Assembly: GCA_036559195.1 (NCBI GenBank)
Contig: DATBTN010000066.1
Location: forward strand, 1 to 49,360
Reading direction: 5' to 3'
Source of the DNA: Candidatus Baltobacteraceae bacterium
GTDB taxonomy: Bacteria; Vulcanimicrobiota; Vulcanimicrobiia; Vulcanimicrobiales; Vulcanimicrobiaceae
Length of the DNA stretch: 49,360 nucleotides
Both the position numbers and the translations under genes were made by a program. Under the pieces are notes generated by a model. The model did no database searches. It was given only the letters and a program-made list of their open reading frames with translations, and had not been told where the DNA came from. This document shows, in pieces, positions 1,977 to 19,237 of the stretch. Positions within the stretch are counted from its first letter, which is position 1, and every line of letters begins with the position of its first letter.

Positions 1977-2473
1977 CGCGCCGCGGACTGCTCATCGGCG
2001 GCGCGGCGGCCGTAAGCGCGCTCGCCTATCGCGCGCTCGTTCCGCCGGCACTGGCCGCGATGCCGGGCGGCGGATACGCCGTGACGCACACCGATGCGCA
2101 GTGGCGTAAATTGCTCGGTCCGGATCGTTACGCAATACTGCGCGAGAACGGCACCGAGCCCGCCAACTCGAGCGCGCTCAACGCGGAGCATCGCGCCGGC
2201 ACGTATGCATGTGCGGGCTGCAATCTGGCGGCATTCTCGTCGGCAACGAAGTTCGATGCAGGCGAAGGCTGGCCGAGTTTTTACAAACCGCTCCCCAATG
2301 CCGTACGCACGCGCGCCGACTACGAAATCGGCATCCCCCGCACCGAGATTCATTGCCGCCGGTGCGGCTCGCACCTCGGCCACGTCTTCAACGACGGGCC
2401 GCCGCCAACCGGCCTACGCTACTGCATCGACGGACTCGCGCTGCATTTCACGCCGGATCGCGCACCCGGCTAG
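1961..2473 (+). CDS. msrB: Peptide-methionine (R)-S-oxide reductase MsrB with Tat signal
   Basis: I place the start at GTG 1961, which gives 170 residues; a much longer reading of the same frame would only translate the msrA shadow. The chosen N-terminus is a twin-arginine signal: [16 protein letters not shown], then a hydrophobic stretch ending at [10 protein letters not shown]. The mature domain has both zinc CxxC pairs (CAGC and CRRC), the WPSFY block and the catalytic Cys in [11 protein letters not shown]. It should reduce methionine-R-sulfoxide outside the cytoplasm, while MsrA works inside. The start overlaps msrA by 16 bases. Confidence 0.93.
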
Positions 2474-5148
2474 CGCTCGAGTAACCAGCGAACTAACTGC
2501 GCGCGAGACGACACGTGCACTTTTGCGAAAATGTTGCTGACGTGCACCTCGACCGTTCGCTCGCTGAGTACCAAACTCTCCGCGATTTGGCGATTCGCGA
2601 GCCCCTCGCCAACCTTACGGGCGATTTCAACTTCGCGGCGCGTCAAACCCGACGAATCTTTCGTGTTTACCACAGCCGCGCCGGCGCGAGTCGATCCCGG
2701 AATCACCCCGGCAGCTTCAAGTAAATGACACTGCTCCGATGACGGTGTGCCGGTGAGGTGCGCCGCGAGTGCGGCAAACATTGGCGCGTCGAGATGCTGC
2801 AGTTCCGCATCGATCGCTCGAGCGCGAGCGGGATCGCGCCTCGAACCTCCCGCCACGCGCGCGTGCTCGCGCATCAAGTTCCAATGCGCCACCGCCCAAC
2901 GCGATCGATCGACCGATTCGGTCGGTCCCGCGAGAAACGCGAGTACTTCACTATGGCGGCGCCGTGCGGCCCACACCGACAGCCCAAGTGGGAAATACGC
3001 GACGTCCACGATCCACGGCGGATGCTCTGCGACCTCAGAAACCAGGTCGCGCAGCCAGCGCTCCAGTCCCGGCTGGTGCAATCGCGCGAGTACCCAGGGC
3101 AAGAATTGCTTCGCAGATCGTGCGTAGCGGCCCGCCAGCAGGAGCTGACCTACCTGCACCATCTCCGCGTCCCAGGCAGTCGATGCGCCGGTGAGCGCTC
3201 CCACGATCGCTGGAACCACGAGCAGTTGCGCGCGACGCGGAACTGCCATGTCGCTGCGATAGAATGACTCAAACCGTTCCAGTGCAATCGTCCACGATCC
3301 GGTTGCGATAAGGAACGCCGCGTCCAACATTCGCACCGCGAAAAGATCGTCGGATTCGAAGCGATACCGCGCGGATATATCGGGTAGAAACCGCTCGATG
3401 GCAGAGCAGCCCTTGTGGTGAAAGGTCGCGTAGAGCTTGTTAAATTCGAGAGCCATCTTTTGGCGAACTCGGCGCTCGTCGGCGACCGAGAAGGCCTCCG
3501 CGAGCGCCCGCATCGCGCCATCGTAGTCACCCTTGCCGGTCGAAAAGGTCGCGAGTGCTCCAAGGCTCGTCGCGCGGGCATAGTCGCTCTGGCCCGACAA
3601 CGAGAGAAATTCGTTCCGGGAAGACGCAAATCTCTCCGCATCAAAAACGATCGCGGCCACGGCCATCGCCATTGCGGCGATCGGCGCGCGATCGGCTTCC
3701 GCCAAGGCTTTTCGCCGGTAACGTTCGTAGACCAAAAAGACCTCGTTGGGATTTTCTATCGCGATAAGAAACGCCTGATAGAGCGCCACAAGTGGGCCTA
3801 TGCCGTCAACAATATCGGCCGCATCTGCTAGCCGAAGGGCGTTATCGAGCATTGTTGGTGCTTCGAGTGCGCGATCGAGGCTTCGGAGCGCGACACCGTA
3901 TCGCATGTAGAAATCCACGAACCGATCCCTGGGCACGTTCTTCATCGACAGGGCTCGTTCGCACGCGCCGACCACGGCCGTCCAAGCGTTCTGATTAAAG
4001 GCGGTATCGGCAAGGAGGTAGAGAGCCTCAAACGCCCCATCGCGATCCCCGCAGGCAATCGTCTGTTGAACCAGGCGTTCGATCTCATCGAGTTGGAGTT
4101 CGTGAATCGAACGCAACGCCTCGATGATCCGCGTCCGGAGCGGAACTTCAAATTCGATCGTCGCCGACACGGCATCGGCGATTAGGTGGTGGCTAAAACG
4201 CAGATCGGGGCCATCCGGCGCGAGAAACGAACGTGCGGCGCCTTCCAGTAACCGGGCAACTTGTCGCGCATCGGGATAGAGCTTAAAGATAAGCCGGAAC
4301 TCGATCGGTTCGCCGATGAGGGCGCAGAGCTGAAGAAATTCACGCTCCTCCGGTACCATTCGTTCGATACGTTTGGCGATGAGCGAGAGCGTGCTTTGGT
4401 CGCTCCAGGATTCGGCCGCGCCGTTGCGGGCCACGTCCTCGCAGAGCGTTAGCAGCGTCAGCGGGTTGCCGCGACCTTGGTACACGATCGTGTCAACCGC
4501 GACTTCCGGCAACTGCGGAAGCTGGATCCGAACGAGCCGTTGGGCGTCTACTTGACTCAGCGGGCCGAGGTCGATCGCGGTTTGACTCTGCGGCATTGCC
4601 GGATTGTGTTCGCCGCTACGCTCCGCGCCGATCAATGCGAGCGTGCCCATGGAGAAATGTTCCGCCAGGGCGCGCAACACCGACGCGCTTTGCCGGTCTA
4701 TCCACTGCGCGTCGTCGCAAGCAATCAAAACGCGGTAATCGGCGGCGACTCCCTCTAAGAGTCGAGAAACGATCTCGACGCAGTTTTCTTGGTTGAGCCC
4801 GCTTGGCTGCGTCGGCATTCCGAAGAGGGCCGCGAAGCCTGGATCGAGCGCGGCTAACTCGTCCCTCAACCCGCTGGCGTATCGCCCGATATCGGTGCCC
4901 AGCCGGCGCAGCACCGCAGCGGTAATTCGGATCGCTACAACATACGGGCTATCGCTCTGAACCTCGTGGCATGCAACGCTTACGGCAAACCATCCGCTCT
5001 GCGAGCACGACGTCACCAACTCGGCGAGAAAGCACGACTTGCCCACACCGGGAGGGCCCGAAACGCGGAGAAGTATCGGTTCGGCGTAGCCGCCGCCCCG
5101 ATCGAGCATACTCTTCGCGCGTGCAAATTCGCGATCTCTTCCAATCAT
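2470..5148 (-). CDS. LuxR-family LAL-type regulator with AAA/STAND ATPase (paralogue 1)
   Basis: This 892-residue protein has the large ATP-binding LuxR (LAL, MalT-like) architecture. An N-terminal P-loop ATPase carries Walker A GPPGVGKS at residues 31-38 and a Walker B-like LIACDDAQWID near residue 140. A long helical, TPR-like middle follows. A C-terminal LuxR helix-turn-helix starts at about residue 830 (LTRREVEIARKVGEGLANRQIAESL, SERTVEVHVSNIF). Its ATG overlaps the stop of the upstream methyltransferase by 4 bases, so they share an mRNA. It resembles the protein at 6220-8889 along its full length. It is probably a ligand-gated activator; the effector is unknown. Confidence 0.9.
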   Translation of the reverse strand: MIGRDREFARAKSMLDRGGGYAEPILLRVSGPPGVGKSCFLAELVTSCSQSGWFAVSVACHEVQSDSPYVVAIRITAAVLRRLGTDIGRYASGLRDELAALDPGFAALFGMPTQPSGLNQENCVEIVSRLLEGVAADYRVLIACDDAQWIDRQSASVLRALAEHFSMGTLALIGAERSGEHNPAMPQSQTAIDLGPLSQVDAQRLVRIQLPQLPEVAVDTIVYQGRGNPLTLLTLCEDVARNGAAESWSDQSTLSLIAKRIERMVPEEREFLQLCALIGEPIEFRLIFKLYPDARQVARLLEGAARSFLAPDGPDLRFSHHLIADAVSATIEFEVPLRTRIIEALRSIHELQLDEIERLVQQTIACGDRDGAFEALYLLADTAFNQNAWTAVVGACERALSMKNVPRDRFVDFYMRYGVALRSLDRALEAPTMLDNALRLADAADIVDGIGPLVALYQAFLIAIENPNEVFLVYERYRRKALAEADRAPIAAMAMAVAAIVFDAERFASSRNEFLSLSGQSDYARATSLGALATFSTGKGDYDGAMRALAEAFSVADERRVRQKMALEFNKLYATFHHKGCSAIERFLPDISARYRFESDDLFAVRMLDAAFLIATGSWTIALERFESFYRSDMAVPRRAQLLVVPAIVGALTGASTAWDAEMVQVGQLLLAGRYARSAKQFLPWVLARLHQPGLERWLRDLVSEVAEHPPWIVDVAYFPLGLSVWAARRRHSEVLAFLAGPTESVDRSRWAVAHWNLMREHARVAGGSRRDPARARAIDAELQHLDAPMFAALAAHLTGTPSSEQCHLLEAAGVIPGSTRAGAAVVNTKDSSGLTRREVEIARKVGEGLANRQIAESLVLSERTVEVHVSNIFAKVHVSSRAQLVRWLLER

Positions 5149-5879
5149 TGAATCGACAAATGGCGACTCGTGCCGGCAGTTCCCGTCACGATCGAGTAGC
5201 GGAAGGTTCCTCGATCGATTGCCTCAAGCACCGCGCACGCTTCGTAGCGCAACGATCCGGCAATCTCGGGATGCCACTCTTTCGTCAGGACGATCTCGCC
5301 ATAGTAGCCTCGCGCGAATGCAGACGCCCGCTGTGTATAGTCGATGACTGCGGCGTTGGCGAATCCCCGGGGTTCGGGAACCTCCATAGCGCGTAACGAT
5401 GCGGCCGTCACAACGAATCGACCACCGGGCCGAAGCGCACGAGCGACTGTATCGGCAAGTTCGCAATCGACGATGCCGTTTGTCGTCACCTCGATCGCAA
5501 GAACCGCATCGTATGCGTGCACCCAATCGCGATCTCGAAAGTCTGCTTGAATAAAACAGCCATCGGGCACGTGCTTGCGCGCGGCCTCCAGGGCCTCGAC
5601 GGCGCGATCGCAGCCGGTGTAGTCAACCCCGCTGGCAACGCGTTGAAGGAACCGTCCGGCGAAGCCGCGCCCGCATCCGATATCCAGGAGCGCGGCGCCG
5701 CGTTCGACGCCCAACATTTCCATAACATCGGTCATCATCGCGTCGTCGACCGCGGACATTCGACCCATGCCGCTCGGCTGGCCGGCGCGGGCAGCGCACG
5801 CGTCGAGGAGCGCGTCGTTTAGACGCGTGTGAAGGCGACGGTATGCCACCTGTCTCACGAGCGTGTCGAAAAATCTCAC
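5145..5879 (-). CDS. SAM-dependent class I methyltransferase (paralogue 1)
   Basis: The Rossmann-fold methyltransferase has motif I ALLDIGCGRGFAGRFL, an acidic motif II region (YTGCDRAVEAL), and the post-motif LRPGGRFVVTAASL. I chose GTG 5879 as the start because a TTG further upstream would end exactly on the ATG of the divergent gene at 5951; that TTG start at 5951 remains possible. The C-terminus (AIDRGTFRYSIVTGT) and the SGMGRMSAVDD block are shared with the methyltransferase at 11605-12336, so the two are paralogues in one neighbourhood. It is the first gene of an operon with the LAL regulator. The substrate is unknown; given the YcaO gene nearby, a peptide or small metabolite is possible. 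Confidence 0.85.
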   Translation of the reverse strand: MRFFDTLVRQVAYRRLHTRLNDALLDACAARAGQPSGMGRMSAVDDAMMTDVMEMLGVERGAALLDIGCGRGFAGRFLQRVASGVDYTGCDRAVEALEAARKHVPDGCFIQADFRDRDWVHAYDAVLAIEVTTNGIVDCELADTVARALRPGGRFVVTAASLRAMEVPEPRGFANAAVIDYTQRASAFARGYYGEIVLTKEWHPEIAGSLRYEACAVLEAIDRGTFRYSIVTGTAGTSRHLSIQ

Positions 5880-5950
5880 GTGCAGGGGGATTGTTCGCTC
5901 GCGAGCACCGAAACCCAGCCTAGCTACTTGCCTTTCCAAAGGAGCTTCCA

Positions 5951-6223
5951 ATGCCGCTGAGCCCGGATCAAGAAAAAGCCGCCGCCACCAAATATCTGGA
6001 TATCGTCGCCAAAGATCCAGCTGCGCGCGAGCGTTTCATCGATCTCAAACAGGGCGACGAAAAGCTGGTCGCCGCCGAGATCAGCAAAACGGTCGGAATG
6101 GAAGTCCATCCGGAGAATCTACGCGGGATGGCGACTCATCTTTATGCGCATCACAGCGAAGCGGTCGAGAAACTCCATCACGAATTCCCAGCTATGGCGT
6201 CGTTTGTCCTCGAAGATATCTAG
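5951..6223 (+). CDS. Small Nif11-leader-like protein, possible RiPP precursor
   Basis: This 90-residue protein starts with a good ribosome site (AAAGGAG, 7 bases before the ATG). The stretch TKYLDIVAKDPAARERF, then LVAAEISKTVGMEV, then HPENLRGM resembles Nif11/NHLP leader peptides: an aromatic-hydrophobic helix, DP..R, a small-residue helix ending in G, then 'xENL'. It lies between two LAL regulators and is divergent from methyltransferase 1. Its last 4 bases overlap the 3' end of the second LAL gene. Against a precursor role, there is no GG or GA cleavage site and the C-terminal 25 residues contain no Cys and few Ser. It could instead be a leader-fold regulator or carrier. The gene is real; the function is a hypothesis. 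Confidence 0.6.
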   Translation: MPLSPDQEKAAATKYLDIVAKDPAARERFIDLKQGDEKLVAAEISKTVGMEVHPENLRGMATHLYAHHSEAVEKLHHEFPAMASFVLEDI

Positions 6224-8889
6224 ACAATTTCAAGCATGCGTCGAATGAGTTGCGTGCGCGATGCAATCCGCAGTTTCCCAAAGATATTCGTAAGGTGAAC
6301 TTCAACCGTTCTTTCGCTCAAGAACAGCGATTCGGCGACCTGACGATTCGTCAGACCGTCGCTTACTAGTCTAGCAACCTCGTTCTCGCGGCGGGTAAGC
6401 CCACCCCGCTCCGGGAATTTTGCCGCACCTAAAGCGACCGGGACCCGCTTCAACCCGAGTTTCGTCAGAAGGCTGACCTGATTTTCAGAGGCGATACCCG
6501 CCTCTTCAGCCGCGTATGAGGCGAAAAAACTAGCGCCTAAAGCCTCGAACTCTTGAGCCGCTACGCTAAGTAGTGATTTTGCATCTTGGCAACACAGGGA
6601 CTTGCTCGCGATACCACGAGCAAGGGTCCACTGTGCGAGCGCCCACCGCGAAAGGTCCTTAGTTGCCGGAGTTTCGGCGAGCACTTTAAGACTTTCCGGG
6701 GACTTCTGGCGAGCCGCCGCTAGTGCCATGCCCAGTGGAATAAAACCGACATCTGGTGGTCTTGGAGGAGCCATCGGTGCGCCAAGCGTGAGAGATTTAA
6801 GGTGCCCTTCCAGGTCTTTAGAGGCTCCGCGCACCACCGCCCACGGGACAAGCTGCATCGCACTCAGGCGGTAGTCGTCGCGAATCGCGGCAATGCTAAC
6901 TTTCTGAATATCAGCATCCCAGGGGGTTGAGACTCCCGTCATGGCACCAATAAGAGCCGGAATTGCAAGAAACGCGGCCGCTCGCGTAACGGGAATGTCA
7001 GGCCGGTAGGCAGCTTCAACGGTTGAAAGCGCAGTCTCCCAATCACCTCGGGCCACTGCATCCCAACCGAAGAGCACACGCGTAAAGTACTGATCCTGCC
7101 CATCAAATCGCACTTTAGCAGTCAGATCAGTCAAGCGCCTGTGAATTGCCACGCAGCCAAATTCCCGAAATTCGATGATCGTTCTATTGAATTCAATCAG
7201 TTCCATTTGGTGATTGAGCTTACTGTCGGCGCGAACAGAAGCGGCATCGAGCGCTCGTTGACTAGCGGCGTAATCACCCATTCCCGACGCCAAAAAGGCA
7301 GTTGCGATCAGGCGAGTGGTGGTCGTGTAATCATCTGTGCCTCCCAGCAAATCCATCTCTTCCGTTAACTTGACAAAGCCGTCTTGGTCAAGGGCTAATC
7401 CTGCAATGCCGACAGCCATGCTCAAGGCCGGAGCTCGCTCCTCACCTGCTAGTCTCGACGAATATCGCTCGTAAAGAACGAGACCCTGTTCCGACCGTTC
7501 AAGCGTCATTAATACCGCCATCTGCATGGCGACTAGACGCCCGATACCGACCGTGACATTCAGGGCTTCAGCCAGGCCAAGAGCGTCGCTCAGCACTATG
7601 GTCGCCTTCGCTTCCTGGTCAGTTACGATTAGAGCTTTACAATATTTAGCGAAAAAGCCGGTAAATTTCGCGCTCGACGGATTCTGTAGCGCCAGGGCAC
7701 GTTCTGAAGCATTGACGACCGCGGCCCAGGATCGTTTTGCTAGAGCAGCGTCGATAAGGTCGAGGTACGTGTCATACGCGAGATCGCTGTTTCCGCAAGC
7801 TAGTGAGTGCGCGATGATGCGCTCGAAATCGTCAGGTTCGGGCTGGGGAATGGATTGCAGCGCTGCGATGATCTTGGTGCGCAGCGGGAAATCAAACTCC
7901 ATGCCCGAGACGATCGCGTCCTCGATGAGCCGGTGCCGGAAGCGCAAATGGGGGCCGTCGGAAATGAGATACGATCGAACGGATCCCTCGAGCAGGTCCG
8001 CGATCTGTTGCGCCTGGGGGTAGAGCTTAAAGAGCAGTCTGAACTCGATCGGCTCGCCGATCAACGCGCAAAGCTGCAAAAACTCGCGTTCGGAAGCCGT
8101 CATCGCCAGTACGTGATTTGCAACCAGATCGCGCGTGCTTTGCTCGTTCCAATGGGTCGTGCCGTTGCGACGGACATCGTCGCAGATCGTCAAGAGATCG
8201 AGCGGATTCCCATGCCCTTGCTGCGCGATCGTATCGACGGCCACTTCGGGAATGTCGGGCAGTTTTGCGCGAACGAGTTCGCGCGCTTCTTCACGGCCGA
8301 ACGGTAGGAGATCGATCGAAATCGGGCTCGCCGGCAAAAGCTCGTTGTGAGCGCCGGGGCGCTCGGCGGTCAGCAGGGCGACCGTTCCGATTGAAATGCG
8401 CTCGGCGAGAGCACGGAGCACGGAGGCGCTCTGGTCGTCGATCCATTGGGCGTCGTCGCAAACGAGCAGGACCGAGTAATCAGCCGCGATGCCTTCAAAT
8501 AAGCGCGTGAATACGGATTCGTACCTATCGCGGTCCGGCGCGGCCGCTTGCGGCTCGATTCCGAGCAGCGCCGCGGAACTGGGATCCAAGGCCGCAATAG
8601 CCTCTTCCAAGCCGCTTACGTATCGCGCCGCATCGGCGCCGAGCCGCCGCAAAGCGCCGGCTACGATGCGATTGGCGGCGACCCGCGGCGTATTCTGCTG
8701 AATTTCGTGACAGGCGGTATAGACAACGAACCAGCCCGCATCGCGCGATTCGGCGGCAACGCGTTCGACGAAGAGCGATTTTCCGACGCCCGGCTCGCCG
8801 CTCACGCGCAACAAGACCGGCCCCGCCGCCGGGCCGGCTTTGACGAGTATCGAGCGCGCGACACTCAGTTCGCGCGTCCGGCCGATCAT
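6220..8889 (-). CDS. LuxR-family LAL-type regulator with AAA/STAND ATPase (paralogue 2)
   Basis: This 889-residue paralogue of the protein at 2470-5148 has the same opening (MIGR.RE), with Walker A GEPGVGKS again at residues 31-38. Walker B-like LLVCDDAQWIDDQSASVLRALAER is almost identical between the two. The C-terminus is a LuxR helix-turn-helix (LTRRENEVARLVSDGLTNRQVAESLFLSERTVEVHL). The 3' two thirds of the gene look visibly less GC-rich than the 5' third and the surroundings. It is divergent from the lipoprotein-YcaO operon across only 57 bases, the typical position for a regulator of that operon. Confidence 0.9.
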   Translation of the reverse strand: MIGRTRELSVARSILVKAGPAAGPVLLRVSGEPGVGKSLFVERVAAESRDAGWFVVYTACHEIQQNTPRVAANRIVAGALRRLGADAARYVSGLEEAIAALDPSSAALLGIEPQAAAPDRDRYESVFTRLFEGIAADYSVLLVCDDAQWIDDQSASVLRALAERISIGTVALLTAERPGAHNELLPASPISIDLLPFGREEARELVRAKLPDIPEVAVDTIAQQGHGNPLDLLTICDDVRRNGTTHWNEQSTRDLVANHVLAMTASEREFLQLCALIGEPIEFRLLFKLYPQAQQIADLLEGSVRSYLISDGPHLRFRHRLIEDAIVSGMEFDFPLRTKIIAALQSIPQPEPDDFERIIAHSLACGNSDLAYDTYLDLIDAALAKRSWAAVVNASERALALQNPSSAKFTGFFAKYCKALIVTDQEAKATIVLSDALGLAEALNVTVGIGRLVAMQMAVLMTLERSEQGLVLYERYSSRLAGEERAPALSMAVGIAGLALDQDGFVKLTEEMDLLGGTDDYTTTTRLIATAFLASGMGDYAASQRALDAASVRADSKLNHQMELIEFNRTIIEFREFGCVAIHRRLTDLTAKVRFDGQDQYFTRVLFGWDAVARGDWETALSTVEAAYRPDIPVTRAAAFLAIPALIGAMTGVSTPWDADIQKVSIAAIRDDYRLSAMQLVPWAVVRGASKDLEGHLKSLTLGAPMAPPRPPDVGFIPLGMALAAARQKSPESLKVLAETPATKDLSRWALAQWTLARGIASKSLCCQDAKSLLSVAAQEFEALGASFFASYAAEEAGIASENQVSLLTKLGLKRVPVALGAAKFPERGGLTRRENEVARLVSDGLTNRQVAESLFLSERTVEVHLTNIFGKLRIASRTQLIRRMLEIV

Positions 8890-8946
8890 GACCGAGTTTT
8901 CGGAATCGCTCAGGAACGTATCCTCATTGTATCGAAGGGGGCGCGC
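8890..8946. promoter_or_regulatory. Divergent intergenic region, LAL2 / lipoprotein-YcaO operon
   Basis: Only 57 bases separate the start of the second LAL regulator on the minus strand from the start of the solute-binding lipoprotein on the plus strand. Both promoters, or one bidirectional control region, must lie here or run into the coding sequences. The plus-strand gene has a purine-rich ribosome site, AAGGGGG, about 6 bases before its ATG. I see no clear palindrome. Confidence 0.4.
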
Positions 8947-10392
8947 ATGGATCGTCGCGCATTTCTTGTCGGGACTTCATTGCTATTTGCGTCGGGTTGC
9001 GCGCAAAACAAGACCCCCGATCGACTTAGACTCTCGACCGTTGCATTGAGTACCGCTCTCGATCCATATACCAACATGTCCCTCGATACCGCCGAACTGA
9101 GCTGGCTCTTCGCCGATGGCCTCATCGGCGCCGATCCAAAGGATCTCGCCCGGGGGTCGCTCAGCGCGATCGCTCCGTCGGCGGATCTTCGCTCATCCAC
9201 CCCGGCGCACCGCTCTTTTAGGTATCGGCTACGCCCGGGCATTCGTTGGCACGACGGAAAACCGTTCGTCGCCGAGGACGTCGTGGCGTGCCTGACCCGT
9301 CTCAAGGGCGGCATTGTCGGCAAACTCCGGCCTTACCGCCTCGTGGAACGCATCGAGGTGATCGGGCCGCACGAATTCGTCGTCCATCTCATCGAGGCCG
9401 ACCCGGCATTCCCGCTGGCCTTTTTTGGACCCCTTGGATCCCCCGGGGTGCCGCTCATTCGCCCCGGCGCGCTGCCCATCGGCACCGGCCCATTCCGGCT
9501 CGAAAGCCACCGCCCCGACGGCACGAGTTACGTCGCGTGGAGCGGCTCCCCGCGTGGCGACGCAGCCAGCCGGCGACTTTCGCTGCAATATCTGGCGAGC
9601 GCACAGACGCAAGACGTTATGTTACAAACGCGAGAGATCGATATCGCGCTCGGCGCCGACAATATTTTCGTACGCGATCACCACATGCACTACATCAAGC
9701 AAAACGCCGGAATCGGCTACGCGCTGCTCAACGTCAGTGGCACCCTCGCGAATCCGAACCTGCGCGAAGGCATCGCGCGGGCGGTCGATCGCAACGAGCT
9801 GGTGGTGAAGGCCTACCGCAACTGGGCGGACCCTCTGACATCGATCCTTCCCGAGCGCGCCCCCGGCGGCGACGTGCACTCTCCACTGCACTTCGATCTA
9901 GCGGCGGCCAAACGGAGCTTCGCTGCGAGTCCGAACGTCAAGCTCACGATTGTTACAACCGCAGGTAACCCGGAACGCATCGCGTTGCTCCTGCAAGAGC
10001 AACTTCGACGCGCCGGCGCGCAGACCGAGCTTCGCCGCTACAGCGATCTCGAATATGCCGCGCCGAATGGACCGCTGCAAACCGGCAGATTCGATATCGC
10101 GTTGTGGGGCGACGTCTACGCGCTGGACCCCGATCTGCTGGCCATTTGGGGATGCGACGCACGGCCGCCGCGCGGCAACAATTTCTCGCGTCTGTGCGAT
10201 CCGCGCTTCGACGCCGACGTTCGCGCTGGGCGATCGGAGTCCGCGCTGCACGCTTTCTGGCGCGATGTTGCCGTCGTGCCATTGGCCGGTTTCGCGCGCT
10301 GCACGGCCGCAACGACACGAGTCCGCGGTCTCACCTCGCCCAACGACCTCGCGCCCTCGGTATATAACTGCACGCAGTGGTCGCTCACCTAA
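8947..10392 (+). CDS. Family 5 extracellular solute-binding lipoprotein
   Basis: I chose ATG 8947 over longer readings because it gives a lipoprotein signal: MDRRAFLVGTSLLFASGC, with a lipobox (FASGC) at residue 18. The 481-residue protein then has the SBP_bac_5 signature RLRPGIRWHDGKPFVAEDVV and the hinge block NPNLREGIARAVDRNELV. Its length is typical for peptide or nickel binding proteins. No permease or ATPase gene follows. Instead a YcaO enzyme gene begins inside its last codons (16-base overlap), so this binding protein is probably made together with YcaO. I infer that it senses or captures a peptide-like ligand at the cell surface. Confidence 0.88.
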   Translation: MDRRAFLVGTSLLFASGCAQNKTPDRLRLSTVALSTALDPYTNMSLDTAELSWLFADGLIGADPKDLARGSLSAIAPSADLRSSTPAHRSFRYRLRPGIRWHDGKPFVAEDVVACLTRLKGGIVGKLRPYRLVERIEVIGPHEFVVHLIEADPAFPLAFFGPLGSPGVPLIRPGALPIGTGPFRLESHRPDGTSYVAWSGSPRGDAASRRLSLQYLASAQTQDVMLQTREIDIALGADNIFVRDHHMHYIKQNAGIGYALLNVSGTLANPNLREGIARAVDRNELVVKAYRNWADPLTSILPERAPGGDVHSPLHFDLAAAKRSFAASPNVKLTIVTTAGNPERIALLLQEQLRRAGAQTELRRYSDLEYAAPNGPLQTGRFDIALWGDVYALDPDLLAIWGCDARPPRGNNFSRLCDPRFDADVRAGRSESALHAFWRDVAVVPLAGFARCTAATTRVRGLTSPNDLAPSVYNCTQWSLT

Positions 10393-11648
10393 AAAAACTC
10401 GCCGGTTCGCACGATCGGTCCGTGCCGGTCCACGAAACTCTGGCGATTGCCCGATCGCTGCGCGAGCGATACGGAATCACGCGCATCGCCGATACGACAC
10501 GCCTGGATCGCATCGGAATTCCCACGATCAGCGTCGTCGTACCAAACTCGGTCGATAAAATCGGCGTGTACAACGGCAAGGGGCTCACGCGCGAACACGC
10601 GATCGCGAGCGGCCTCATGGAGGCACTCGAACGTCAAATCTGCGCGCGCTGCGAAGTCCCTCGCTTCGATGCGCCGGTCGCGCAGATCGACGCGCTCCTC
10701 GATCTGCGCGCGCTCGGCTGGCTCGGCGAACTCGAAGGGTCGGTAGAGTGCGTGGCCGGTACGAACCTGCTCACCGGCGAGCCGGTCGCCGTACCGATCG
10801 GCGTCGCCCAGTGCCCGCGACTCACGCCGCGGCGCTTCGAGCGAACGTCAACAAATGGGCTAGCTTCGGGAAACAACCCGACCGAGGCAATCTATCATGC
10901 GCTTTTCGAACTCGTGGAACGCCATCTGCTCTCAACCGTCCACGTGCGCTCGCACATTCTCCCGCGGGCGTTACGCTCGCTAGCGGGTTTGCCGACAGAA
11001 GCTCACGATGACGTGGTCGCGAGCGAAGTGATCGATGCGGCGGAGCACCCGATTCTCGGCGATTTGATCGCTCGCATAAAGGCGGCCGGCCTCGAATTTC
11101 GCCTGCTCGCCTATGCGCCGCCCGGATGGCCGACGGCGATGCTCGCGTGCATTACGGAACGCGCGGGCCGCGAACTCTTCTATCACATCGGAATGGGCTG
11201 TTCGCTCTCGCCGGGACATGCCGCCATTCGCGCGGTCACCGAAGCCGCACAATCGCGCGCAGCCGATATCCAAGGTGCGCGCGAGGATCTCGAACGCGCC
11301 GACGGCGCCGCACCCAACGATGTTAAACACGGCCGGCGCCCTGCAGGTTTTCCGACCGACGGACGCTGGTATTTTGACGGTCCCGCCAAGCGCATCGGCC
11401 TCGCGGATTTGCCGGACACGTCGTGCGCCGATCTCGGCGACGAAGTCGAACTCGTACTCGAAACGCTGCGTGCCTACGGCGAAACGTGCGTTGCCTACGT
11501 AGACCTAACGCCGCCGGGCGTGCCCATTTCGGTCGCTCGCGTCGTGGCACCGCATCTCGAGCGAACGCTCGTCGACGGGTCGATCTCGAGCCGCCTGCGA
11601 CGGGTTATGCGGCCTCTTGGCGCGTTCCGGTTAGCATCGTGTAGTTGA
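10377..11648 (+). CDS. YcaO-domain protein (ATP-dependent peptide-backbone modifying family)
   Basis: This 423-residue YcaO protein starts at a GTG overlapping the lipoprotein gene. The YcaO ATP-binding motifs are intact: SGLMEALER (SxxxExxER), then NGLASGN followed by EAIYHALFELVER, and the late block TEAAQSRAADIQGAREDL. YcaO enzymes activate backbone amides with ATP to make azolines, thioamides or amidines in RiPPs, or act on ribosomal proteins and methyl-CoM reductase. The C-terminus (MRPLGAFRLASCS) lacks the PxPxP tail of azoline-forming cyclodehydratases, and no E1-like/ThiF partner or TfuA gene is visible. A non-azoline or partner-independent reaction is therefore more likely. The last 44 bases overlap the convergent methyltransferase. 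Confidence 0.9.
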   Translation: MVAHLKKLAGSHDRSVPVHETLAIARSLRERYGITRIADTTRLDRIGIPTISVVVPNSVDKIGVYNGKGLTREHAIASGLMEALERQICARCEVPRFDAPVAQIDALLDLRALGWLGELEGSVECVAGTNLLTGEPVAVPIGVAQCPRLTPRRFERTSTNGLASGNNPTEAIYHALFELVERHLLSTVHVRSHILPRALRSLAGLPTEAHDDVVASEVIDAAEHPILGDLIARIKAAGLEFRLLAYAPPGWPTAMLACITERAGRELFYHIGMGCSLSPGHAAIRAVTEAAQSRAADIQGAREDLERADGAAPNDVKHGRRPAGFPTDGRWYFDGPAKRIGLADLPDTSCADLGDEVELVLETLRAYGETCVAYVDLTPPGVPISVARVVAPHLERTLVDGSISSRLRRVMRPLGAFRLASCS

Positions 11649-12336
11649 ACGTGCCGCCTTCGATTGCGTGCAGCACGTAGGCCGCCTTTACGCACATCTG
11701 GCTCTTGATCGCGTCGTCCCAAGCACCCAGCAGAAACGCCGAATACATCGTCGAGGCGAACTCTTTGACTTGCAGCGAAAGATCGCAGACCTGCTCTACA
11801 TCGGCGTGGCGTTGCAGGAGATCGATCGAGCGCAGGATCTTCTCTTCGTGAGCGCCGTCGAGCGAGATCAGCGTCACGACAAAACGGCCCCCCGGCTCGA
11901 GGTGCCGCCCGATCGCCGCGGCTACTTCCGCGGAGAGGGCACCGCCCGACGGCGGCTCCAGCGCAAAGACGCGATCGAAGGACTCGTTGATTCCAAGCGA
12001 ATCGAGTTGCGCGTAGACGAACTCGCTCTGTGGTGCATTCCGGCGCGCGGCTGCGACTGCCTCGGGTACGGTATCGACCCCAACGTACCGGGTATCGACC
12101 TTGTACCATCGCAGCCAGCGCGCCAAGAACCCACGCCCACACCCGATATCGAGCACCCGCGCTCGTGACGACAGGTCGGCCGCACGCACGATCTCTGCCA
12201 ACACTCGATCGTCGAGTAGACAGAGTCGCCCAATCCCCGATTGCGACCCGCTATGACGTGCGTAGAGATCCAAAGTGCCGTCATCGACGTAGCGGTGGAA
12301 CTCTCGGTTGCGCGTCCATTGACCCAGATCGAGCAT
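11605..12336 (-). CDS. SAM-dependent class I methyltransferase (paralogue 2)
   Basis: This 243-residue methyltransferase has motif I VLDIGCGRGFLARWL, a VGVDTVPEAV acidic loop and LEPGGRFVVTLISLDG. It shares the SGIGRL..LDD block before motif I and the terminal AIEGGTFNYTMLTGT with the methyltransferase at 5145-5879, so the two are paralogues. It is convergent with the YcaO gene and their 3' ends overlap by 44 bases. Being within a few genes of YcaO, it is a candidate tailoring enzyme for the same pathway, but no substrate can be read from the sequence. Confidence 0.87.
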   Translation of the reverse strand: MLDLGQWTRNREFHRYVDDGTLDLYARHSGSQSGIGRLCLLDDRVLAEIVRAADLSSRARVLDIGCGRGFLARWLRWYKVDTRYVGVDTVPEAVAAARRNAPQSEFVYAQLDSLGINESFDRVFALEPPSGGALSAEVAAAIGRHLEPGGRFVVTLISLDGAHEEKILRSIDLLQRHADVEQVCDLSLQVKEFASTMYSAFLLGAWDDAIKSQMCVKAAYVLHAIEGGTFNYTMLTGTRQEAA

Positions 12337-14438: not shown

Positions 14439-14942
14439 CTAGTCTTCGGTGTCGATGCTTACTTGGAGTTTGTCGGTGTAGTTGCCGACGCCGACGTTTT
14501 GCAGCGGTGCGATGACTCCGTAGAGCGTGATCGACCCGTGAGCGCCGTCCTCGCGGTCAAAAGACTCGCGCTCCGCCCCGGCGCCCAGCTTCATGCCCTG
14601 CGGTCCTACGGGTGCCTGGCATGTGGGATCTAAGCAGATTTGATAGTAGAGACGATCGCCGCTCGCGTCGACCATGTATCGCTGTGTCGCAGCGCTCCCA
14701 TTGGAAAGAAACCGCACGACGCGTTCCGGTTCGCGCTCCGAACCGCCCGTGCAGCTATACTCGAGCGTTACCGGAGTCACCGTCGCCGTGTGGCGGAACG
14801 TATTGTACGCGCCGATTTGCAACGGCGAGACCGAGACGATACACGTCGGAATCGAGAATGCGGCCTCGGCTGGACGCGCCAGCACGATGTTCCAACCGAG
14901 CGTCGCGACGAGCGCAATTGCTACGGCGTAAGCTTTGTGCAT
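14439..14942 (-). CDS. Spore coat U (SCPU) domain protein, CsuE-like pilus tip candidate
   Basis: This 167-residue secreted protein starts at ATG 14942 with the signal peptide MHKAYAVAIALVATLG...ARPAEA. The SCPU fold is shown by 'CIVSVSPLQIGAYNTF' near the N-terminus, the central EYSCTGG, RRYM-like 'QRYMVDASGDRLYYQI', and the closing 'GVIAPLQNVGVGNYTDKLQVSI'. It is the last gene of the chaperone-usher operon, the position held by the tip adhesin CsuE in csu clusters, but it is shorter than classical CsuE with its two domains. Its start overlaps the usher gene by 22 bases. Confidence 0.85.
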   Translation of the reverse strand: MHKAYAVAIALVATLGWNIVLARPAEAAFSIPTCIVSVSPLQIGAYNTFRHTATVTPVTLEYSCTGGSEREPERVVRFLSNGSAATQRYMVDASGDRLYYQICLDPTCQAPVGPQGMKLGAGAERESFDREDGAHGSITLYGVIAPLQNVGVGNYTDKLQVSIDTED

Positions 14943-17203
14943 GTTTGTACTCCGAGCTTGACGTACGTCAGTGATGTTTCCGGGATGACGAGTGTGAAGC
15001 CGCACGCACCGCCGGCGTATTTTACCGTTGCCGGATGCGGTCCGGGAGCTAGGTTCTCCAAATAAAATTCGCCCGCTTCACCGATATTCGATGTAGCTTG
15101 CTGCCCGCTGCCAAGATCGACCGTTAGCATCCCGTATTGAGGAGCCTTGTTCGTCGACGCCAAATTGACCGTTCCGAGAAACGACTGCGTGCGGTGCGCG
15201 TCGAACGTTGCAAGTGCCGCCGCGAAATGCGCCGCCTCAACGTTTCGTTCGGTGGTCGAATACTGCTCGCCGATCGGCGCCCTCCCCGTATCGAGCGCGA
15301 TGTGATTCGGGTAGTACTCCTGGACCTCTGGAACGACCAGGAGGCCGCCCCGATTGGTCTTTCCTACATACCGCCCGTTCACATCAACCGGCAGACCCGT
15401 CGGCCCCGCTGCCGAAACGACGACGTATCCGCCTTGAAGTGGGCGCGATAGGAGTATGTGGTGATCTGCGAACACGATGGCTCCGGCTGCGTTGAAGTAG
15501 GTCGACGCATTGCCGGCAAAATCGGTTCGGTTGAGGGTATAGATGCCAACCGGGCCGTCGTACTGAGCCACCGCTTGCAATTGCGGATTGTTGCCGCGCG
15601 TGATGCTGAGATTATAGCCGAGTGGCTGATCCGGAAAAGCCGGACGGCTCGCCTGCACGTTTACACTTCCTCCGGCGGCCGACGCGTCGTTCGTGATCGA
15701 TCCGTACGACTGCTGGCCGATCGGGAAATTGAGCGCCGTGTAAACGTCGGTCCGATTAAATCCCGCTGCCGCTTGGGTTCGCTGATAGTCGATGCTTAGC
15801 GACAAGGCTTTCGCCAGCGGAATCGTCGTCAGCGCGCCGTAACCGGTTTCTTCGCCCAGGTCGCGATCGTGTGCGTGTGTGAGGTTAAAGGCCAGAACGC
15901 GCCGGCCGATCGGAAGACCGAGGCTGACCGTTTCGCTTGAGAGCGCGTGGTCTTGCGCGGCCGGCTGGAACAGATTTGCATACGACGCCGATTCGAGCTG
16001 CACGCCGATGTTGAAATAGACGCGCGGCGTTGAGTAGTTGTACAGAAACTCGGCGGCCGAACCAGATTGACCGTTCGCCGAACTTGCGAACCCGAGCAAA
16101 TCGAACTCCCCGGCGCGCGTCGATATCGCTACCGTTGGTCCGGCGTTGACCAATCGCGCCGCGCTTTGGATTCGGCCGCCAACCGTCACGTGATCGTTCA
16201 CGCCCAAACTGTAGCTGCCGGCAAGACCGGCCGCTCCAAGTGAGTGTCCTAAGCCGTCCTGCGGATCGCCGGCCGTGTAGGTGTAGTCGGTCTGGCCTTT
16301 GTTGAGCAGTTGGAGGCCCTGGTAGAACGACTGCGAGAGCGTCTGAACGTTCCCGAAGGCGTCGCGAATGACGACCTGCGCGTTGTTCGCGCCGGCTACC
16401 AGCGGCAGGTTCTGGATATTAAACGATCCGGGCGGCAACTGTAATTGTTGCACGAGCGAGCCGTTAACGTAGACGTCGGCGGTCGACGGCGTTGCGACGT
16501 ATCCCGTAAGGGCATGCGTAACGAAGCGGTTGACGAATGGATCGAGGCCGAAGTTGCGTTCGATCGTGACGCCGCGCACGATACCGCCTCCGGTCAGATC
16601 CCCAAAATTAACGAAGCTGTCACCAATGACCGATCGCCGCAGCGTATGCTCGTTATCTATGGTCCAATTGAGGTTGGTTGCGCGATAGATCCCGGCGACG
16701 TCGTTGAAGGTCGCGCTCGCAACGCCAGCTCCAAGCGTGGATCCAAATTGTGTCGAGAGTCTCCCTGATTGCCCTTGCGTGAGCAGTGCGCCATAATTAA
16801 TGAACGCGCTTTTCGTTCGGGTTACCGGTACCTGTTGACCGCTGCGAATATCGAACGACGACGCGGCCAGCAATTTTGGGTCGACGGTGATGCTTAGCGT
16901 GAGCGTTTTCGTGTCGATCCGCCACGTTACGTCGGGCTTGAGCGCGTTGAGCGAAACGTAGATTCCGGATGCAACCGCGTGGGCCGCAACGGCTTTGCTC
17001 AAGCCGAGATCCTTAAGATCTGCTTGTGCGATCTCCACGTCGCTCGAGTCGACGAACACCGTGTATAGGCCGTCGTCGACCGAGTTCACCTTCACCGTTA
17101 GAATCGCCCGGATACCCTGCTGCGCTTGCGTCGGGATGGCCGTTGCACCGACGAGAGCCAGTGTTATCGCCAAGGCAGCGCAAAACGCGCGAACGCCGCG
17201 CAT
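14921..17203 (-). CDS. Fimbrial outer-membrane usher (FimD/PapC family, CsuD-like)
   Basis: This is a 760-residue usher. I prefer ATG 17203, one base after the chaperone stop, because it begins the signal peptide MRGVRAFCAALAITLALVGA...PTQAQ; another in-frame start lies 33 bases upstream. The body has typical usher motifs: RATNLNWTIDNEHTLRRSVIGD, then GLDPFVNRFVTHALTGYVATPSTADVYVNGSLVQ with PPGSFNIQNLPLVAGANNAQVVIRDAFGN (plug region), beta-barrel repeats, and a C-terminal 'VDVNGRYVGKTNRGGLLVVPEV'. It forms the outer-membrane pore that assembles pilin subunits handed over by the chaperone, so the organism should have an outer membrane. Confidence 0.92.
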   Translation of the reverse strand: MRGVRAFCAALAITLALVGATAIPTQAQQGIRAILTVKVNSVDDGLYTVFVDSSDVEIAQADLKDLGLSKAVAAHAVASGIYVSLNALKPDVTWRIDTKTLTLSITVDPKLLAASSFDIRSGQQVPVTRTKSAFINYGALLTQGQSGRLSTQFGSTLGAGVASATFNDVAGIYRATNLNWTIDNEHTLRRSVIGDSFVNFGDLTGGGIVRGVTIERNFGLDPFVNRFVTHALTGYVATPSTADVYVNGSLVQQLQLPPGSFNIQNLPLVAGANNAQVVIRDAFGNVQTLSQSFYQGLQLLNKGQTDYTYTAGDPQDGLGHSLGAAGLAGSYSLGVNDHVTVGGRIQSAARLVNAGPTVAISTRAGEFDLLGFASSANGQSGSAAEFLYNYSTPRVYFNIGVQLESASYANLFQPAAQDHALSSETVSLGLPIGRRVLAFNLTHAHDRDLGEETGYGALTTIPLAKALSLSIDYQRTQAAAGFNRTDVYTALNFPIGQQSYGSITNDASAAGGSVNVQASRPAFPDQPLGYNLSITRGNNPQLQAVAQYDGPVGIYTLNRTDFAGNASTYFNAAGAIVFADHHILLSRPLQGGYVVVSAAGPTGLPVDVNGRYVGKTNRGGLLVVPEVQEYYPNHIALDTGRAPIGEQYSTTERNVEAAHFAAALATFDAHRTQSFLGTVNLASTNKAPQYGMLTVDLGSGQQATSNIGEAGEFYLENLAPGPHPATVKYAGGACGFTLVIPETSLTYVKLGVQTCTKLTP

Positions 17204-17204
17204 G

Positions 17205-17966
17205 CTATTTACAGCTCTTGTTTGCGAGCGGAACATCCCGCAGTACGACCGGCCCGAGGTTGGTTTGGGCCGTAATGTTGATGCTGCTCACCGAGCGGCA
17301 CGCGGCTTTCGAGAACGGCAGCGAGAAGTCGCGGCGACCTCCAGCAAGAACATACCACGCATCCGCAGATGCGCCGGCAACCGTTTTTCCACCGGCATCG
17401 AGGCCGGCGACCTCAATTTTATCGATCATTTCGCGGACGGTTCCGTTGTTGCGCAACGAGAAGTCGATTTTACCGGAAGCGAGCGTTGCGCTCGGAATCG
17501 CGAGCGCGCGCACCTGGCGCGACGGCTCCACGAATACGGGAACGCCGACTTTCAGGCGAACCGCGATGGAATGCCCGGTCAACGCCTCATTGATTGAAGG
17601 CAGTTCGTTGATGAAGACGCGAAATGTTCGCTCGGTCGAGGCCGCGCCGCCTTCGACACCGATCCGAATCTGTTGCGTTTCGAGCGGAGCGACCGTTACG
17701 AGTGTGGGGAAAAAAATCAAATCTTCGGACGGCGTGAGCTTCATAACGCCGTTCGGCTGCTGATCCCAAGCGGAGCCCGTGATCTGCAGTCGCACCGGAT
17801 AGGTGGACTTGTTCTGGATGTTCATGACGGCGGCGCCGTCGCCGCTCGGGATCGAGAGCTGGATCGGCGCAACGGCGATATCGGATGCGACGGCCGGGCC
17901 GGCCAGAGCTAGCGCGATCGCCAGCGTAATCGAAGCAGTTATGAGGCGTTTCAATGAGGGGTCCAC
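17205..17966 (-). CDS. Periplasmic pilus chaperone (PapD/CsuC-like)
   Basis: This 253-residue protein has a signal peptide (LITASITLAIALALAGPAVASD) and the two immunoglobulin-like domains of pilus chaperones. The first has 'VAPIQLSIPSGDGAAVMNIQNKS' and the second 'RNNGTVREMIDKIEV'. It starts with a GTG. It donates a beta strand to unfolded SCPU pilins and brings them to the usher. It is encoded between the small 92-residue protein and the usher, the csuC position. Confidence 0.88.
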   Translation of the reverse strand: MDPSLKRLITASITLAIALALAGPAVASDIAVAPIQLSIPSGDGAAVMNIQNKSTYPVRLQITGSAWDQQPNGVMKLTPSEDLIFFPTLVTVAPLETQQIRIGVEGGAASTERTFRVFINELPSINEALTGHSIAVRLKVGVPVFVEPSRQVRALAIPSATLASGKIDFSLRNNGTVREMIDKIEVAGLDAGGKTVAGASADAWYVLAGGRRDFSLPFSKAACRSVSSINITAQTNLGPVVLRDVPLANKSCK

Positions 17967-18014
17967 CTTGAGCGTTGAGGATATCGACGCTCGGGCGAAC
18001 CTGCGAACCTCGGC

Positions 18015-18293
18015 TTAGAAGTTTACTGTTCGCACCAACGTCTTCGGATCCGTGGTGACAATGGGTTTGTTATAGAGGCTCGCCGCGCGCATACCACGCA
18101 GCTGATTTCCGTCGGCCGCCTGCGCGCACGATGACTGAACGCGATTTTGCGATGCTTCGATGACCGCGTCGCACGAGGCTACAACGGTGGCCGAGACGCG
18201 AACGGTCGTCGAGAGACTGTGGCCGCCACTCGCGCTAGCGACGGAGGGAAGAAGACACGCGCCCGCGAGCGCCATACCAAGAACGATCCGCAC
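18015..18293 (-). CDS. Small secreted protein of the pilus operon
   Basis: This 92-residue protein has the signal peptide MRIVLGMALAGACLLPSVASA and a mature part of about 70 residues. The segment TVRVSATVVASC recalls the start of SCPU pilins (compare VAVSANVVPFC in the gene at 18411), but the rest of the SCPU domain is missing. It occupies the position of csuA or csuB, so it may be a reduced minor subunit or an adaptor. I cannot assign it to a family with certainty. Confidence 0.65.
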   Translation of the reverse strand: MRIVLGMALAGACLLPSVASASGGHSLSTTVRVSATVVASCDAVIEASQNRVQSSCAQAADGNQLRGMRAASLYNKPIVTTDPKTLVRTVNF

Positions 18294-18321
18294 GATCCAC
18301 CTACCTTTCGATGGGAGCCGC

Positions 18322-18370
18322 CCGAGCCGCCCTGTCCCCCCGCTAGCGGGGGTTGACAGAGGAGGCTCGG
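18322..18370. repeat. Long nested hairpin inside the pilus operon
   Basis: The core CCCCCGCTAGCGGGGG (18337-18352) is a perfect palindrome, flanked by the arms CCGAGCC (18322-18328) and GGCTCGG (18364-18370), with CTGTC/GACAG between them. It lies between the first SCPU gene and the 92-residue gene. There is no clear run of T on either side, so it is more likely an mRNA processing or stability element that keeps the major pilin transcript abundant than a full terminator. Confidence 0.6.
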
Positions 18371-18410
18371 ATAGCTCTTACCCTTGAGTTAGGTGTATCG
18401 GTCGAAACCT

Positions 18411-18902
18411 CTAGTAGTTGAGGGTAATGGTTACCGTGTCCGAGTAGTTGCCCGTGGTGACGTTCTGCTGCTGCGGAAGCACGCCGTTGAAGGGAAACTG
18501 GTTGTAGCCCGAGTTGTTGTTGAGGGCAATCGTTTGACCCGACGTCCAGGCGACGCTGTCGCCGGCATCTTTATAGAGGTTGTAGTTTAGGAAGCTGGTG
18601 CCGTTGGACATGCGGCGCTGGCTGCCGTTACCATAGGTGCCGCCGTCGACGGACAGGGTGGCGTTTGTGCCCTTGGTGCACTCGAACTCAAGAATGCCCG
18701 TCGTTTTCACGTCAAAATTATTGAAGACGTTGTACGCGCCGAATGCGACCTTGTCGGCACTCGCGCCGAGATCCAAGTTCACGCAGAAGGGAACGACGTT
18801 GGCCGACACCGCGACCGGGGTGACCTGGTTGGCCGATGCCGCCATCGGGCTGAGCAGTAGCGCGACTGCAGCAACGAGCCCGGCTTTTGAAACGAAATTC
18901 AT
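18411..18902 (-). CDS. Spore coat U (SCPU) domain protein, CsuA/B-like major pilin
   Basis: This 163-residue secreted protein starts at ATG 18902 with the signal peptide MNFVSKAGLVAAVALLLSPMAASA. SCPU landmarks are VSANVVPFC, 'VAFGAYNVFNNFDVKTTGILEFECTKG', 'SQRRMSNG..FLNYNLYKD', and the C-terminal donor-strand-like 'NYSDTVTITLNY'. The even, Asn/Gly-rich composition and first place in the operon match the major pilin CsuA/B. A hairpin at 18322-18370 follows and could raise its expression relative to chaperone and usher. Confidence 0.87.
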   Translation of the reverse strand: MNFVSKAGLVAAVALLLSPMAASANQVTPVAVSANVVPFCVNLDLGASADKVAFGAYNVFNNFDVKTTGILEFECTKGTNATLSVDGGTYGNGSQRRMSNGTSFLNYNLYKDAGDSVAWTSGQTIALNNNSGYNQFPFNGVLPQQQNVTTGNYSDTVTITLNY

Positions 18903-19237
18903 GGGAAAATAAGCCTTTCGACAATACACGAGAAAGGGAGGTTCCAGAAAAGTGAAGCGGCCCAGCGGGGAATCGAGCAAACCGCGGCTTGGGGATCGTG
19001 CGGGAGCCAAGCCACAATTCCGCATCTCTATAAGATACCGGTCGACTTCACGTTTCAAGCGACGCTAGAAGCGTTCTCGATACTTATAGCACCGAGCGAC
19101 TAGGCATCACTATCCCCGCCAATGGGGGTTTTTATCGCGGCCAATGAATCGAAAAGACCAAGGGACTAAAGGCCTGCGAATTGCGGCGCTCGCAAGACAG
19201 TCCGAGTGCTTCGTGATTGGTAGGCTTTATCGAACCA
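18903..19237. other. Upstream region of pilus operon, no gene seen
   Basis: About 335 bases hold no convincing coding sequence. The part next to 18902 carries the ribosome site (GAAAGG on the minus strand) of the major pilin gene. On the plus strand a GC hairpin followed by five T lies at 19114-19134. The remainder shows several short A/T-rich blocks where the pilus promoter could lie, but no box is clear enough to name. Confidence 0.5.
19114..19134 (+). terminator. Terminator-like hairpin with T-run, orphan
   Basis: CCCC-GCCAAT-GGGGG followed by TTTTT on the plus strand looks like a short intrinsic terminator. No plus-strand gene precedes it, since the pilus operon is on the minus strand. 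It could end an antisense or small RNA arising upstream of the pilin gene, or simply be chance. Confidence 0.3.

Follow-up and report, generated by a model that had tools for sequence, protein, structure and literature searches.

A Baltobacteraceae gene block as the probable YcaO half of a split TfuA-YcaO peptide system

Introduction

The question raised by the locus studied here is what a YcaO enzyme modifies when it is encoded among two LAL regulators, two methyltransferases, a peptide-binding lipoprotein and a small leader-like protein, with no TfuA gene in the same cluster. The locus lies at positions 2470-12336 of the window, by which we mean the whole stretch of 49,360 nucleotides that was analysed (contig DATBTN010000066.1 of assembly GCA_036559195.1, from a Candidatus Baltobacteraceae bacterium). 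In the draft genome to which it belongs (G000; 2.48 Mb in 80 contigs, 96.9% complete) the window forms contig C66, and the closest named relatives of its YcaO are found in metagenome-assembled genomes of Ca. Eremiobacteria/Eremiobacterota, filed under Vulcanimicrobiota in the tree reference.

We propose, with a probability of roughly 0.7, that the block supplies the YcaO side of a split TfuA-YcaO system for a (thioamide-containing) ribosomally synthesised and post-translationally modified peptide (RiPP), in which the precursor gene stands tail-to-tail with a dedicated LAL gene. An initial annotation of the same DNA had considered the composition foreign to any described RiPP class; a RiPP-like unit built around YcaO, including a small leader-like protein, is indeed conserved, but its composition appears to be that of the split TfuA-YcaO type. 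Our argument rests on what was established here, namely gene presence, intact frames, co-occurrence, gene order, the kinship of YcaO, the predicted leader/core architecture of the small protein and the tandem cores of a relative.

Results

Composition of the block

The seven genes have intact frames at the positions assigned to them in the initial annotation, and the features of the block are as follows.

2470-5148, minus strand: LAL1, AAA_16 ATPase/LuxR-type regulator (Pfam AAA_16 and GerE helix-turn-helix), paralogue of LAL2 (46% identity)
5145-5951, minus strand: MT1, S-adenosylmethionine (SAM)-dependent methyltransferase (Pfam Methyltransf_25/31); start uncertain, TTG at 5951 or a later start
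5940-5944, plus strand: Shine-Dalgarno sequence AGGAG of the precursor gene, 6 nt ahead of its ATG, read from the sequence
5951-6223, plus strand: putative RiPP precursor of 90 aa, with residues 1-80 or so as leader and the last ~10 as probable core (conservation, AlphaFold2 model)
6191-6220, plus strand: residues 81-90 of the precursor (its C-terminal tail), probable core; mean predicted local distance difference test score (pLDDT) 57; aligns with the repeated cores of relatives and with their variable C-termini
6220-8889, minus strand: LAL2, AAA_16 ATPase/LuxR-type regulator, tail-to-tail with the precursor (Pfam, subfamily distribution, locus comparison)
8947-10392, plus strand: SBP_bac_5 (family 5) peptide-binding lipoprotein, accessory (Pfam SBP_bac_5, 134 bits)
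10377-11648, plus strand: YcaO, predicted ATP-dependent backbone-modifying (thioamidating) enzyme (PF02624, 181 bits; best NCBIfam model TIGR03266, below its cut-off; nearest structures 6pe3/6peu)
11605-12336, minus strand: MT2, SAM-dependent methyltransferase (Pfam Methyltransf_25/31), 48% identical to the YcaO-side methyltransferase of G028

Pfam matches of window proteins were counted at E ≤ 0.1 and NCBIfam matches at E ≤ 1. The domains expected of two paralogous LALs, two paralogous methyltransferases, a family 5 lipoprotein and a YcaO within about 10 kb were thus recovered by Pfam, and the coordinates bear out the start/stop overlaps already noticed: 4 bp between LAL1 and MT1, 16 bp between SBP5 and YcaO and, tail-to-tail, 4 bp between the small gene and LAL2 and 44 bp between YcaO and MT2.

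The YcaO enzyme

Judged from its sequence, the window YcaO appears to be of the TfuA-associated type, and sequence and predicted fold both place it closest to the archaeal YcaO that thioamidate McrA. Its best NCBIfam model was TIGR03266 (McrA thioamidation, 185.5 bits). It passed the general YcaO kinase-domain model TIGR00702 (139 bits, cut-off 75.65) and failed both the SagD-type azoline model TIGR03604 of the thiazole/oxazole-modified microcins (70.6 bits, cut-off 219.25) and the uS12 methylthiolation accessory model NF040716 (18 bits, cut-off 700). The last result excludes the enzyme from the RimO/beta-methylthiolation accessory clade, a placement that the initial annotation had named as fatal to its own proposal.

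The nearest PDB sequence was 6pe3, the YcaO of M. jannaschii (E 1.9e-27; next match 4e-7). When the predicted model (mean pLDDT 86.8) was ranked by fold, the 11 best chains were the M. jannaschii and M. kandleri YcaO (6pe3/6peu), followed by the substrate-bound heterocyclase 4v1t-4v1v, which we take to be LynD, and then by others; the 4q84-4q86 YcaO chains also ranked lower. Residues M81, H183 and A301, kept in all 15 aligned YcaO, match by motif position, rather than by alignment to the published numbering, residues reported in the text of PMC8120280 to be preferred in TfuA-associated YcaO. The 20 eremiobacterial YcaO rows form one clade against six outside rows (100/100), and within it the window YcaO joins those of G028 and G013 (100/100). 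TfuA homologues accompanied 77 of 80 relative YcaO loci (all but L047, L061 and L099); these 80, 16 of them eremiobacterial, were drawn from 450 confirmed relatives by a scan whose patterns were built from the motifs of the eremiobacterial family itself, and which is biased to TfuA-type YcaO.

TfuA in the same genome

The initial annotation listed TfuA among the missing parts, but the same genome encodes it on contig C13 (G000:C13:10937-11287) in an intact frame scoring 102.8 bits against a cut-off of 30. This TfuA falls in the eremiobacterial TfuA clade (18 rows, 100/100 against six outside rows); the tree is poorly resolved within the clade and does not recover the window/G028/G013 trio seen for YcaO. 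Judging by their translations and not by any profile, the two genes that flank it presumably encode a lytic-transglycosylase-like protein and a HAD-type phosphatase. G013 likewise has a lone TfuA, next to which are AhpC- and TlpA-like genes, named from sequence and not by profile. Genes of these two kinds also adjoin TfuA in L022, L023, L052, L053, L054, L059 and L060, and lie about 4 kb off in L025, so that the lone G013 TfuA sits at an apparent old cluster site. It is best to regard the window locus as half of a unit that was once linked. At the other extreme, TfuA and YcaO are fused in L022 by Pfam, and 11 of the 27 TfuA-bearing genomes have both domains in open frames of equal length.

The genome has a second YcaO on contig C57 (L030, G000:C57:75001-95000, at 9320-10839), 39% identical to the window YcaO. 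Immediately upstream lies the gene for a 105-aa member of the small-protein family (E 8e-7), with a BTAD/AAA-type regulator about 0.4 kb ahead of that small gene; neither TfuA nor a LAL of the subfamily was found beside this second YcaO. Since it groups with the YcaO of G038 and G040 (97/86) rather than with that of the window, it is not a recent copy. According to PMC5589413, some archaea likewise have two YcaO and one TfuA, and in some archaea TfuA is not obligatory.

Co-occurrence and gene order

The grouping is a real unit, far beyond chance. Among 117 genomes of the class, YcaO was found in 29 (E ≤ 1e-20; 13 of 48 genera), TfuA in 27 and the small-protein family in 28, in near-identical sets (Fisher p values for co-occurrence 4e-26 and 2e-24, with the relatedness of genomes ignored). 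Every one of the 28 genomes picked by the 14-member profile of the small protein bears YcaO, and none of the 88 YcaO-less genomes was picked. In the closer set of 60 genomes, own included, YcaO and TfuA are confined to the same 13. The exceptions are few: TfuA was not found in G080 and G087, drafts that are 73 and 88% complete (the G087 locus, L061, starts inside YcaO at a contig end), and G114 has a distant YcaO-TfuA pair without the small protein.

Gene order was compared in 22 loci, namely the window, 12 loci of relatives and nine further named loci, with genes called by a codon-usage script rather than by a standard gene finder; the own C57 locus was kept apart, and the short YcaO loci of G078, G079, G080, G083, G086 and G092 and the distant G114 locus stood outside the table. 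The small gene adjoins YcaO or LAL in all 22 loci, and in the 20 that carry a LAL it is always tail-to-tail with it. TfuA lies inside the cluster in 19/22 loci, fused to or directly adjoining YcaO in 12, one gene off in L024, L059 and L060 and farther away in L018, L020, L028 and L029. A methyltransferase is present in 16 loci and missing from L020, L025, L026, L027, L057 and L058. The co-occurrence of neighbours around homologous YcaO, suggested as a check in the initial annotation, was therefore borne out for the small gene (22/22), LAL (20/22) and the methyltransferase (16/22).

Neither the SBP5 lipoprotein nor the second LAL belongs to the core of the cluster; for SBP5 this follows from its presence in only 5/22 loci. 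An OPT carrier occurs in six others, bringing peptide-uptake genes to 11/22, a count made without a control which suggests that peptide uptake matters.

Pfam scanning of neighbours covered 30 proteins from relatives and ten flanking genes of the window. The reported lack of a dedicated exporter and protease holds in that none is conserved among the 30 proteins, but not for single loci, which carry Lon (L020, with clustered homologues in L028 and L029), a BlaR1-type M56 peptidase (L024) or an MFS carrier (L026). A protein of about 100-127 aa is conserved in 14/22 loci, mostly near the LAL start (e.g., L023:5698-6069); it was not found in the window, and two members scanned matched no Pfam family. 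P-type ATPase genes occur within about 10 kb of the cluster in L018 (heavy-metal domain), L022, L024, L052, L053, L054 and L059. A link to copper, considered from these ATPases, was dropped as no control was run.

The small protein as a precursor

Judged by its architecture and conservation, the most likely identity of the 90-aa protein encoded at 5951-6223 is that of a RiPP precursor. The protein gave no match in Pfam or NCBIfam. Its description as Nif11-like was not upheld: the window protein had no match to that profile, only 2/14 family members matched it weakly (best E 0.0089), and a class-wide search with PF07862 (E ≤ 1) did not pick the window protein, the overlaps with small genes among the matches listed being those of G028 and G036 only (E 0.3-0.37). 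A leader of the nitrile-hydratase type was also set aside, since no such model, which we assume NCBIfam to hold, appeared among the NCBIfam matches of the 14 members.

The AlphaFold2 model, built with 30 family members in the alignment, has six helices up to residue 84 (mean pLDDT 86.7, predicted template modelling score 0.77), whereas residues 81-90 average 57 and residues 86-90 fall below 50. Against solved structures the leader gave no Foldseek match at E ≤ 0.001 (highest probability 0.08) and a best VIA-align Z of 3.2 over 97 chains; protein A (E 7e-5) and other helical look-alikes, obtained with the sequence profile against PDB chains, were set aside as convergent helices. It has been reported in PMC12455567 that structured leaders of the nitrile-hydratase type engage YcaO as a protein surface.

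The C-termini are of several types: many genomes have an HVGxxxLMQ-like end, G028 and G013 share a YPxMNxxxxTT-like one, and the window protein ends in FPAMASFVLEDI, with one Ser, no Cys and no Thr among its final ten residues. In several members the conserved tail stretch has no Cys, Ser or Thr, and therefore backbone thioamidation fits better than azoline formation. The G033 precursor (L024:7096-7563) carries five tandem HVGxxFVVQ units at a 14-residue step (a 42-bp tandem repeat), in a locus with one further YcaO and one further precursor; two core-like segments are seen in a precursor of G079, and G006 has three small genes in tandem. These tandem cores and genes support the reading of the family as peptide precursors. 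Seven orthologues from genus g25, the one genus covered by the test (the window gene has diverged too much from its closest relatives for it), are under purifying selection (pN/pS, the ratio of non-synonymous to synonymous differences as uncorrected proportions, 0.12 in the leader and 0.18 in the tail), and the small gene can hence be regarded as real.

An Acidobacteriia open reading frame (L063:9636-9908), just upstream of a TfuA-linked YcaO, was considered as a member of the family beyond Eremiobacteria; with E values of 0.11 and 2, it was not counted.

Regulators and methyltransferases

Both LALs combine AAA_16 with a LuxR-type helix-turn-helix by Pfam; while they are 46% identical to each other, LAL2 reaches at best 39% with any other LAL found. 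In the set of 60 relatives the LAL subfamily (E ≤ 1e-15) was detected in 13/13 YcaO genomes and in 2/47 others; since no more than 15 first-look candidates were scored in each genome, absences elsewhere are soft. MT1 and MT2 are paralogues (33% identity). G013 and G028 likewise have a pair of methyltransferases. The YcaO-side enzyme of G028 is the one with which MT2 groups (85/78; 48% identity), while the tree does not settle the position of MT1. The PDB matches of MT2 were assorted SAM methyltransferases with E values of 3e-6 or weaker.

Genes around the block

At lower coordinates than LAL1 the window encodes a probable toxin-antitoxin pair (808-1462), formed by a PIN-domain protein and a Phd/YefM-like antitoxin (24 bits, below the Pfam threshold), and the methionine sulfoxide reductases MsrA and MsrB (1503-2473), which adjoin LAL1. 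Beyond the block are chaperone-usher pilus genes (14921-19058: usher, PapD-like chaperone and spore-coat-U-like subunit) and a BREX-like pair (19569-22942), in which a BrxC/D-type ATPase adjoins a DEAD/Lhr-type helicase.

Discussion

Proposed mechanism

We infer the following course of events, in which the thioamide, the target of methylation, the cleavage of the core, the function of LAL and the role of the compound are the parts deduced. The ribosome would make the 90-aa precursor, whose folded helical leader carries a short C-terminal core. The leader could dock on YcaO, as suggested by the structured-leader precedent described in PMC12455567, and YcaO with ATP would activate one or more backbone amides of the core, most likely converting at least one to a thioamide by exchange of O for S. 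The TfuA encoded on another contig may take part in the sulphur step in trans, and MT1 and MT2 probably methylate the product. Release and export of the core might rely on peptidases and transporters that are not dedicated to the cluster, which the LAL ATPase-regulators would control.

Several observations weigh against this proposal. TfuA is absent from the window cluster, as it is from that of G013, and its pairing in trans is deduced; the YcaO score for TIGR03266 lies under the curated cut-off (185.5 vs 365 bits); and the 30 neighbour proteins of relatives include neither a conserved protease nor a conserved exporter. The two loci of genus g36 (L057 and L058) have no LAL. The window tail FPAMASFVLEDI is unlike the HVGxxxLMQ type and shows no repeat, and Cys, Ser or Thr are present in other tails of the family. 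Finally, core positions do not diversify faster, given the pN/pS values of the seven g25 orthologues (0.18 in the tail, 0.12 in the leader).

Alternative explanations

A peptide-pheromone circuit would be a compatible extension of the split TfuA-YcaO system: the modified peptide would be exported, re-imported through SBP5 or OPT and would activate LAL, turning the cluster on. The near confinement of the LAL subfamily to cluster genomes (13/13 vs 2/47) and the uptake gene in 11/22 loci are in its favour. On the other hand, among the neighbours examined we saw no conserved exporter and no SBP5 permease (of the two L028 genes behind SBP5, one is of cyclodeaminase type and the other has no assignment), and the OPT neighbourhood, for which no control was made, may be plain synteny. 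We consider the circuit conceivable but improbable as things stand. The same tentative standing applies to its fullest version, a self-sensing thioamide pheromone in which the tail peptide would be the LAL ligand, SBP5/OPT its route of uptake, and a single TfuA would serve in trans the YcaO-precursor pairs of both C66 and C57.

Somewhat less probable is that the small helical protein is a finished product, modified in its tail like McrA and acting inside the cell, e.g., on LAL. Such a role would agree with a predicted fold extending over 80+ residues, with a YcaO nearest to the McrA-modifying type, with the tail-to-tail order of small gene and LAL in 20/20 LAL-bearing loci and with the lack of a conserved protease or exporter among the 30 neighbour proteins examined. 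However, the five repeats of G033, the two core-like segments of G079 and the three copies of G006 are typical of peptide precursors (compare thiovarsolin, as described in PMC6511847), and Lon, M56 or MFS genes do lie near single loci.

It is unlikely, and more so than the preceding possibility, that the window YcaO, lacking an adjoining TfuA, has turned to an azoline or amidine reaction, or that the cluster is decaying. The off-cluster TfuA in the window genome and in G013, and the C57 YcaO likewise without TfuA beside it, could be read in this way; by contrast, the own TfuA is kept as an intact frame within the eremiobacterial clade, the frames of YcaO, small gene, LAL and methyltransferases are all intact, the SagD-type score is 70.6 against a cut-off of 219.25, and the final ten positions of the window tail hold one Ser and neither Cys nor Thr.

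A role of YcaO in modifying ribosomal proteins (uS12/uL16 type), with neighbours that are there by accident, is very improbable: a YcaO-dependent uL16 thioamide has been reported in Pseudomonadota (PMC13063428), but NF040716 gave 18 bits against a cut-off of 700, the neighbours are conserved over 22 loci and the 4q84-4q86 YcaO chains rank under the archaeal ones in fold.

Significance

If the block is indeed half of a split TfuA-YcaO system, peptide chemistry of this kind would extend to a phylum that is not named in the text of the survey PMC8120280. The compact precursor family, in which the leader is predicted to fold and versions with one, two and five cores occur naturally, would be useful to study how YcaO and TfuA recognise their substrates, and the split form, with one TfuA in trans and two YcaO-precursor pairs, offers a test of whether TfuA must be encoded beside YcaO. 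The tight pairing with a LAL subfamily could open a route to what such regulators sense.

Comparison with known systems

In the open-licence literature we found no paper joining Eremiobacterota with YcaO or TfuA, or Vulcanimicrobiota with biosynthetic gene clusters, and the main text of PMC8120280 mentions neither Eremiobacter-/WPS-2 names nor LuxR. TfuA-YcaO RiPP clusters, fused genes and extra YcaO included, have already been described there.

Precursors with Nif11- or nitrile-hydratase-type leaders share with the present family a long leader and a short C-terminal core, but the window protein has no Nif11 match, and the matches in 2/14 relatives are weak. The methanogen YcaO-TfuA that thioamidates a glycine of McrA (TIGR03266; 6pe3, 6peu) includes the solved YcaO structures nearest in both sequence and predicted fold; the window YcaO differs in scoring under the TIGR03266 cut-off and in being linked to a small precursor-like family.

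A further comparison is with the TfuA-YcaO clusters of thioamidated RiPPs (thioviridamide-like, thiovarsolin), as described in the texts of PMC6511847 and PMC8120280. In both cases YcaO and TfuA share genomes, are mostly clustered and at times fused, and a small precursor gene adjoins them; the tandem cores of the relatives recall the repeated cores of thiovarsolin, whose production, as reported in PMC6511847, was abolished by deleting the precursor, YcaO or TfuA gene, and whose cluster, in the same account, has no protease either. Unlike in those clusters, the TfuA of the window genome is on another contig, the long helical leader has no Pfam or NCBIfam match, and a LAL regulator stands tail-to-tail with the precursor. 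The general kind of cluster is thus already known, and what is new here is the precursor family, its close pairing with LAL and the TfuA in trans.

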